The notes under the pieces: generated by a model
Databases searched by the model: none
The model's input: the letters and a program-made list of their open reading frames with translations, nothing else
What the model was told of the DNA's origin: nothing
Part shown: in pieces, positions 10,781 to 63,120 of the stretch
Numbering within the stretch: position 1 is the first letter of the stretch
Layout: each line of letters begins with the position of its first letter
Origin: Halorubrum sp. CBA1229
GTDB lineage: Archaea; Halobacteriota; Halobacteria; Halobacteriales; Haloferacaceae
NCBI RefSeq assembly: GCF_003721435.2
Contig: NZ_CP054585.1
Location: 2,418,001 to 2,482,000, forward strand
Length of the DNA stretch: 64,000 nt
Direction of reading: 5' to 3'
Position numbers and translations under genes: made by a program

Positions 10781-11296
10781 TATTTTATAAGTGAATCTGG
10801 ATGTTGCGGTCGAGTATTTATAAACGATCGACGACGCTGCGACGAACGGCTTCAGAACCCCAGCCGCTCGCTTATAAATAGCTGCCGGTGATGCGGGGAA
10901 CACCTCCAAAGCCCCAGCCGCGAGGGCGGCGCACACTCGCTGCGCTCCTCGGTCGCACACTCGCTGCGCTCCTCGGTCGCTCACTCCGTTCGCTCCCTGC
11001 GGTGTCGCCGGCGGCTTCGCCGCCGGCTGCCCGTGGCGCGTAGCGCCACGCTGCTTACGTCGTCTGCGCCGCCCTCGCGGCTGCCCCTTTGAGTCCCCAC
11101 CCACCGCACAGCACCGCAGCCTCACACCTCCCCAGCCTCGTCGCCGGACTACGTCCGGCTGCAAGCGAGAGCTTCGCTCTCGCCCTGTCAGTCGCCTCCG
11201 CTTCGCTCCGGCGACTGACTCCCTCGCGCGTGCGACTCGCGGCCCTAGGGGCCGCTCGCCGGCACGCGCCACCGCGGCCGTTATTTATAAACAATC
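10781..11296 (+). repeat. Structured intergenic element, copy A
   Basis: This is the first of three related noncoding elements. It opens with three TATA-like boxes (10781 TATTTTATAA, 10815 TATTTATAAAC, 10872 TTATAAATA) and ends with TATTTATAAAC at 11282-11292. The signature CACCTCCAAAGCCCCAG (10901-10917) leads into a perfect 18-base stem, 10916-10933 with 11065-11082. Inside the loop are a 24-base tandem duplication (10930-10977) and hairpins GCCGGCGGC/GCCGCCGGC (11007-11027) and GTGGCGC/GCGCCAC. After the stem come TGCCCCTTTGAGTCC (11082-11096) and CACCTCCCCAGCCTCGTCG (11125-11143), both shared with copies B and C, then three more hairpins. Long Arg-rich frames here are artefacts of GC-rich palindromes. 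It lies between divergent endA and the CDC48-like gene. Confidence 0.85.
10916..11082 (+). repeat. Long paired stem of copy A (18-base arms)
   Basis: The left arm AGCCGCGAGGGCGGCGCA (10916-10933) is the exact reverse complement of 11065-11082. The equivalent arm in copy B has several substitutions and one extra base, yet is again perfectly paired, so the pairing rather than the sequence is kept. Confidence 0.88.
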
Positions 11297-26426: not shown

Positions 26427-26910
26427 CGGGAGTGGGTATAGCAAGACGGTGGAGCAGTTGTTTATAAGCGCTCGGATGATGTTGCTGGCGGCTATTTATA
26501 AGCGAACGGCAGCGTTGCGGTGAAGACCTCCAAAGCCCCAGTCGCTGCGGACGGCGCACGCTCGCTGCGCGCCTCACTCGGTCGCTTCGCTCCCTCGTTG
26601 CGGTGCTTACGTCGCCTGCGCCGTCCGCAGCGACTGCCCCTTTGAGTCCTCCCCGCACCGCACAGCACCGCACCTCGCACCTCCCCAGCCTCGTCGCTGG
26701 CGGCGATAGCCGCCAGCGACGCCCTCGCACCGGCGTCGCCGGCGGCTCCGCCGCCGGCTGCCAGAGGGACCTTCGGTCCCTCGCGGTTCGCGGCTCTCCG
26801 GGCCGCTCACCGGGGCGCGCCACCGCCTGTCATTTATAAGCGATCGTCGCCGTCGCTCAGGGCTATTTAAATACCGAATCGCAACCGCCAATCTGCGATA
26901 CCCACTCCCG
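26427..26910 (+). repeat. Structured intergenic element, copy B, with terminal inverted repeats
   Basis: This copy has TTTATAAG boxes at 26461 and 26493-26502 and TTTATAAG again at 26833-26840. ACCTCCAAAGCCCCAG (26526-26541) leads into a perfect 19-base stem, 26540-26558 with 26617-26635. TGCCCCTTTGAGTCC (26635-26649) and CACCTCCCCAGCCTCGTCG (26678-26696) match copies A and C. Hairpins TCGCTGGCGGC/GCCGCCAGCGA, GCCGGCGGC/GCCGCCGGC and GAGGGACC/GGTCCCTC follow. CGGGAGTGGGTATAGCA (26427-26443) pairs with 26894-26910 with one mismatch, bounding about 484 bases. It lies between the convergent tupC and HIT genes; the minus-strand Arg-rich frames are not credible genes. Confidence 0.85.
26540..26635 (+). 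repeat. Long paired stem of copy B (19-base arms)
   Basis: AGTCGCTGCGGACGGCGCA (26540-26558) is exactly complementary to 26617-26635. Compared with copy A, the middle of the arm differs and both sides changed together. The loop is only 58 bases, against 131 in copy A. Confidence 0.88.
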
Positions 26911-62701: not shown

Positions 62702-63120
62702 TATTTATAAATAGACGCGGCGGCGCGTGCCTGCGAGCGGGCTGTAAGCCCGCGAGCAGCGCGCGCGAGGGAGTCGGTCGCCCGGAGCAACGCGGAGGGG
62801 CGACCGACGAGGCTGGGGAGGTATGAGGCGCGGTGCGGTTGCGGTGGGAGGGAATCAAAGGGGCAGCCGTGAGGGCGAAGCACGGCGACGCAAGGACCGC
62901 AGGGAAGGAGCGAAGCGACTGACCGAGGACCGCAGCGAGCCGCGCGAGCCCTCGCGGCTGGGGCTTTGGAGGTGTTCACCGCAAAGAGACCAGTCACGTA
63001 TCGCCGAGCGGCTGGGGCTTTGGCGGTGTTCACCGTCGGTTCTGCAGCAGACGTTTTTTAACCGAGCGGCTGAGGTTTTGGGAGAAATCATCGCTGACCC
63101 GTACTCGGCTATTTATAACT
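62702..63120 (-). repeat. Structured intergenic element, copy C (reversed)
   Basis: Read on the minus strand, this copy begins after the TATTTATAA box at 63110-63118 and has three iterations of the leading unit (CCAAAGCCCCAGCCGC type) at 63070-63083, 63012-63033 and 62958-62979. A 12-base stem follows: 62948-62959 with 62865-62876, one mismatch. The TGCCCCTTTGA block is at 62851-62865 and the CTCCCCAGCCTCGTCG block at 62805-62824. Hairpins GTCGGTCGCCC/GGGCGACCGAC and GCGGGC/GCCCGC and the box CTATTTATAAATAG (62701-62714) close it. It lies between convergent genes. Confidence 0.83.

Follow-up and report, generated by a model that had tools for sequence, protein, structure and literature searches.

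What kind of element are three similar, non-coding intergenic stretches lying within 64 kb of the Halorubrum sp. CBA1229 genome? The initial annotation of this 64,000-nucleotide stretch (hereafter the window) described them as a family of structured elements (A, B and C), either noncoding RNAs or small mobile elements, with many further copies to be expected. The named blocks were found, in the order stated, in A and B on the + strand and in C on the - strand. The "reversed" arrangement of C, in which the blocks are present, is plain placement on the opposite strand.

Copy Number and Genomic Placement

Halorubrum sp. CBA1229 has about 100 such folded repeats, A, B and C among them. In the window, TGCCCCTTTGA with one mismatch allowed occurs 4 times against 0.20 expected, and TTTATAA 18 times against 0.03 expected. 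In the whole genome, the 15-mer TGCCCCTTTGAGTCC with two mismatches allowed gave 99 matches, 75 of them exact, while the reversed control gave 5; the true copies among the 99 number 96. Element A as a query produced 106 local matches, and our covariance model R1 identified 98 places, among them a few that the 15-mer had not detected, so that the prediction of many copies per genome was borne out. Every copy, including all R1 places, is located on the 3.2-Mb replicon (C1), and none on the 364-kb replicon, where chance would place approximately 11 (P about 2e-5). Without exception, the 96 copies are intergenic. They are enriched in gaps between convergent genes (34 of 94), and orientation in co-directional gaps is unbiased (26 vs. 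20). Two stretches of C1, of about 245 kb each, are poor in elements according to the 15-mer (104-350 kb, and 3072-96 kb across the coordinate origin); R1 places one copy at 143 kb, inside the former.

Architecture of the Element

The blocks named in the initial annotation are parts of a larger plan, which comprises one to five tandem 57-bp units followed by stem I, the core and the B block; hairpins II and III come next, with TTTATAAATA as the terminal motif. On the C-rich strand, each 57-bp unit carries a TATA-like motif 37 nt before TCCAAAGCCCCAG, and the last unit continues into stem I through CAAAG, CCCC and AGCCGCGAGG onward, the return arm being CGGCT, GCCC and CTTTG. The core overlaps the end of stem I and is followed by a C-rich spacer with CCTCCCCAGCCTCG, hairpin II, TCCCTCGC, hairpin III and GCGCGCCACCGC. 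The terminal TTTATAAATA was found in 69 of 96 copies (about 72%), against a background of 0.7% for this TATA motif. The features in the window are the following; in element A the C-rich strand is + and the G-rich strand -.

10781..11296, +, element A: TATA units, stem I, core, B block, hairpins II and III, terminal TATA
10894-11101, - (G-rich), R1 match of A, E 2e-13
10902..10917, +, last-unit block of A, ACCTCCAAAGCCCCAG; its CAAAG pairs with CTTTG at 11087-11091
10915..11083, +, stem I of A, with a nested twin-hairpin insertion inside that is outside the core count
11082..11096, +, core of A, TGCCCCTTTGAGTCC
11128..11143, +, B block of A, CTCCCCAGCCTCGTCG
11141..11221, +, hairpin II region of A, holding a twin-hairpin insertion
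11220..11275, +, TCCCTCGC, hairpin III and GGCACGCGCCACCGC of A
11284..11290, +, terminal TTTATAA of A
26427..26910, +, element B; R1 match 26518-26654 on -, E 3e-27
26527-26541, 26635-26649, 26681-26696 and 26833-26839, A block, core, B block and terminal TTTATAA of B
62702..63120, -, element C; R1 match 62846-62981 on +, E 2e-29
62958-62972 and 63012-63026, A blocks of C
62851-62865 and 62805-62820, core and B block of C
62704-62710, terminal TTTATAA of C

Some copies carry "twin hairpin" insertions, i.e., two hairpins of about 20 nt with a short linker, nested in stems or spacers and missing from other copies (10990-11050, 11141-11188 and 26733-26790 in the window); one of those at site A is common to another genome (G027). 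In addition, an optional hairpin module of about 83 bp, CCGGAAGACG...CTCGCGGGA, is located in the spacer before the B block in some C1 copies (722799, 852635, 1028748, 1449218, 1723098, 1734767, 2245002 and 2250950). The 57-bp units were also compared with the 58-bp promoter repeats of HF2, which they resemble in length only.

Covariation of Stem I and the Folded Strand

When 49 copies from several genera are aligned, the stem I cells are paired in 95% of cases, compared to 78% after shuffling and 31-44% in slid versions, with covariation of 0.440 vs. 0.146. Double changes occur in 26 of the 34 pairs, compensatory changes of the kind expected of a structured noncoding RNA, and across 261 copies the outer twelve pairs show all four Watson-Crick types at most positions. 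The outer pairing is CAAAG/CTTTG in Halorubrum and GAAAG/CTTTC elsewhere, the outermost pair being C-G in the former and G-C in the latter, with intermediates almost absent. Stem I is a covarying helix whose structure is under selection.

Concerning the strand, mismatches in Halorubrum read on the C-rich strand are mainly A.C rather than G.T, both in stem I (85 vs. 19) and in hairpins II and III (36 vs. 1), and the G-rich strand yields the better consensus fold. For these reasons it is probably the G-rich strand, and not the C-rich one of the initial annotation, that is under folding constraint in this genus. The asymmetry is nevertheless only suggestive, since two pair positions account for 57 of the 85 A.C mismatches, collapsing by local context removes significance, and the asymmetry is absent outside Halorubrum (11 vs. 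17). In another Halorubrum genome (G370), the conserved internal loop is replaced in the sole strong copy (L417) by a perfectly paired GGGG/CCCC.

Distribution and History

Of 46 Halorubrum genomes, 43 contain the exact core, in 6-186 copies each, and the other three lack it. The covariance-model search beyond the source genome, proposed along with the initial annotation, recovered the family across related haloarchaea: R1 matched 332 of 391 Halobacteria genomes and 75 of 86 genera, including families outside its training set. In this class-wide scan 8 places were scored per genome, with rough E-values, and the counts are thus lower bounds. Outside Halorubrum the usual form consists of two stems in inverted orientation. 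Ten neighbours are shared across genera against 3.8 expected; their orientations agree in half of the cases, i.e., at chance level, and deep positional conservation across genera was accordingly rejected.

The presence/absence polymorphism that had also been proposed as a check does exist between Halorubrum species. In the comparison with one of them (G292), 18 of 36 assessable sites are common, all 18 with the same orientation, and the remaining 18 lack the core, some keeping remnants. For 25 of 115 copies of the genus, both flanks are common with a copy in Halorubrum sp. CBA1229, again in the same orientation throughout (25/25). Many orthologous sites are cleanly empty. Mapped on the tree, site A spans three clades, which implies an old insertion that was repeatedly lost. 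Orthologous copies of stem I are no more alike than paralogs, an indication that modules were exchanged between copies, and in three copies the two flanks come from different sites, which sit inverted in Halorubrum sp. CBA1229, as expected from inversions between copies. The Halorubrum pattern is mostly one of vertical inheritance, together with losses, module exchange and inversions. No terminal inverted repeats or target duplications could be defined at sites A and C or at the copies of another Halorubrum genome (G336), these being old insertions. Recent transposition was considered for G336, which has three near-identical copies, but their flanks make at least one of them a recombination chimera.

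These data bear on the possibility that the copies are dispersed structured noncoding RNA genes of the host, transcribed from the TATA motifs and retained for a cellular function. The strong covariation, the fixed 37-nt spacing of the TATA-like motif in each 57-bp unit, the further TATA motif at the far end and the retention of old sites are all compatible with it. However, copy number varies from 0 to 186 within Halorubrum, orthologs do not resemble each other more than paralogs, Rfam returned no family match (its sole hits were implausible microRNA ones outside the element), and the TATA motifs were seen in no other genus, so that we regard this explanation as unlikely. Even less probable is that the elements act in cis as terminators, promoters or insulators of neighbouring genes. 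The enrichment between convergent genes would fit such a role, as would the element found upstream of an endA-like gene, in the same strand relation, at site A in Halorubrum and again in two genomes from a different family (L412 and L415), although this may be chance. Orientation to neighbours is inconsistent, many orthologous sites are empty, and the other shared neighbours agree in orientation at chance level only.

Mobility in Another Genus

In genus G232 the paired module lies inside the inverted-repeat ends GGTNCTGTTCAG...CTGAACA, flanked by 8-bp target duplications that are perfect in three copies (8/8 in L448, L462 and L463) and match at 7/8 positions in several more. These inverted ends and duplications indicate that the module moved as DNA there, and DNA transposition is what carried it in G232. 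The ends presumably resemble those of the IS6 family. No transposon with the G232 ends was identified among the matches to end a, all but two of which were followed up; nearly all of these matches adjoin the module. With regard to the initial alternative of structured RNA or small mobile element, structure is selected and the module is mobile DNA in at least one other genus, while recent transposition in Halorubrum was not supported.

The haloarchaeal PATEs of Haloquadratum are palindrome-associated, transposase-free, high-copy elements (PMC3119063). That the present family consists of such PATEs, moved by Y1 transposases of the IS200/605 type, is very improbable: near-terminal palindromes, high copy number without a transposase and the same organism class speak for it, but genomes free of Y1_Tnp carry 56-102 copies, genomes with 1-2 Y1_Tnp matches carry none, and the clear ends in G232 are inverted repeats with 8-bp duplications, which PATEs lack by definition. 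Dependence on a Y1 transposase was rejected on the same counts.

The Plasmid Form

On large haloarchaeal plasmids from many genera, stem I is located upstream of, and co-oriented with, an OB-fold gene (15 plasmids). The distance to this RPA/SSB-like gene is about 560-660 bp, and its product of about 287-313 aa is annotated as "DNA-binding protein" or hypothetical. Six of eight plasmid proteins matched NF005553, a model of replication factor A (E 1e-13 to 1e-17, below the model cut-off), and all eight gave weak OB-fold Pfam matches. In two Haloarcula plasmids the gene downstream of stem I is an OB-fold "SOSS complex subunit B family" gene; for four further plasmid matches, linkage to an OB-fold gene is lacking or unsettled. 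The leader measures about 400-650 nt (562-662 nt in the cross-family comparison), has a mean identity of 77% across families and folds equally in sense and antisense. Haloarcula loci L213-L220, L223 and L224 belong to a conserved unit of about 2.5 kb, with a stem I leader and an OB-fold/zinc-finger gene, in 1-4 copies per genome. An origin from rRNA operon leaders was rejected, as the conserved flank of about 2.5 kb common to the Haloarcula copies contains no 16S and own rrn leaders carry no copy. A phage origin was dropped as well: the search for one gave no match, and neither did a scan of viral contigs for the plasmid protein.

Three Natrialbaceae plasmids, from Natrinema sp. DC36, N. zhouii and Natrononativus, carry the second half of the Halorubrum element about 100 bp after the gene. 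This half contains CCTCCCCAGCCTC, a hairpin, TCCCTCGC or TCCCTCAC, another hairpin and CGCGCGCCAC, in the orientation of the Halorubrum element. Matches to a second model (R2) were found 97-98 bp after the gene (L226, E 2e-4; L487, E 2e-5; L486, weak, E 0.17), and the B block is visible in L486 despite its weak score. Two of the three plasmids are near-identical in this region, and the Natrialbaceae subgroup is the only one with the B block after the gene, which is absent there from most plasmids examined. A non-exhaustive look revealed no gene-bearing copy in Halorubrum.

Origin and Possible Role of the Family

On balance, we favour the interpretation that A, B and C represent non-autonomous chromosomal copies, with internal deletions, of a haloarchaea-wide element family whose plasmid form carries an RPA/SSB-like gene. 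Since both halves flank the gene in the Natrialbaceae plasmids, the Halorubrum element can be read as the two ends of a larger element from which leader and gene were removed. The full-length plasmid form would have stem I and a structured leader ahead of the RPA/SSB-like OB-fold gene, with the B block, hairpins II and III and GCGCGCCAC behind it. In Halorubrum, the copies would have kept the two ends, fused, and lost leader and gene. The deleted form probably derives from the full-length one and not the reverse, and mobility may have brought the family into the Halorubrum chromosome at an early stage of the genus. Once copies were numerous, their similarity would be maintained, and their hairpins reshuffled, by recombination among them.

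The conserved features of the element are its ends and folds. Its functional form may be a single-stranded fold, probably of the G-rich strand in Halorubrum, read either as ssDNA in plasmid transfer or replication, similarly to an ssDNA promoter or origin, or as RNA; an RNA partner of the OB-fold protein would be an equal alternative to the promoter role. By analogy, the G-rich strand would serve as template for the RPA/SSB-like gene. A more far-reaching and tentative idea, which we put forward with considerable reservation, is that of a new kind of haloarchaeal selfish element, which has no transposase but couples a large structured nucleic acid to an RPA/SSB-like protein of its own, is kept on conjugative plasmids and has been seeded class-wide into chromosomes as miniature structured recombination/inversion sites.

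If the favoured interpretation is correct, a repeat family present in most sampled haloarchaeal genomes (332/391 by the covariance model) has so far escaped description. We found no account of it in the open-access literature, which omits most subscription papers, and an earlier description is possible. The link to a plasmid gene for a single-stranded-DNA-binding-like protein would make the origin of the family testable, and module exchange and inversion flanking by its copies would help explain Halorubrum genome plasticity. It would also give conjugative archaeal plasmids a large structured leader that is conserved; leading regions and signals acting in ssDNA are, to our knowledge, hardly characterised in such plasmids.

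Comparison With Known Systems

Frpo-type ssDNA promoters belong to the leading region of conjugative plasmids. They share with the plasmid form the placement of a hairpin region ahead of an SSB-like gene, here on plasmids that in part are typed MPF_T for mating-pair formation, a likeness that is one of analogy only. Like REP/BIME and BOX repeats of bacteria, the family is intergenic, palindromic and modular, with a variable number of units and fast-changing hairpin sequence. In contrast to them, it is much larger, has long conserved unpaired blocks, is linked on plasmids to an OB-fold gene and does not require a Y1 gene of the RAYT type, the presence of which does not track copy number. The PATEs and SMRs of Haloquadratum are likewise transposase-free structured haloarchaeal repeats, one nested in another (PMC3119063), and differ, in a comparison by description, in that the present family is Y1-independent, with genomes rich in elements and devoid of Y1_Tnp, and has inverted repeats and target duplications in G232. 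Finally, MITEs are also short and non-coding, with many intergenic copies and an internal deletion relative to a longer form, and the G232 copies additionally share their inverted ends and target duplications, of 8 bp in this case. Unlike in MITEs, the longer form here carries an RPA/SSB-like gene and no recognised transposase, and the internal hairpin is strongly conserved and covarying; in Halorubrum, inverted ends and duplications were not found at sites A and C or in the G336 copies.
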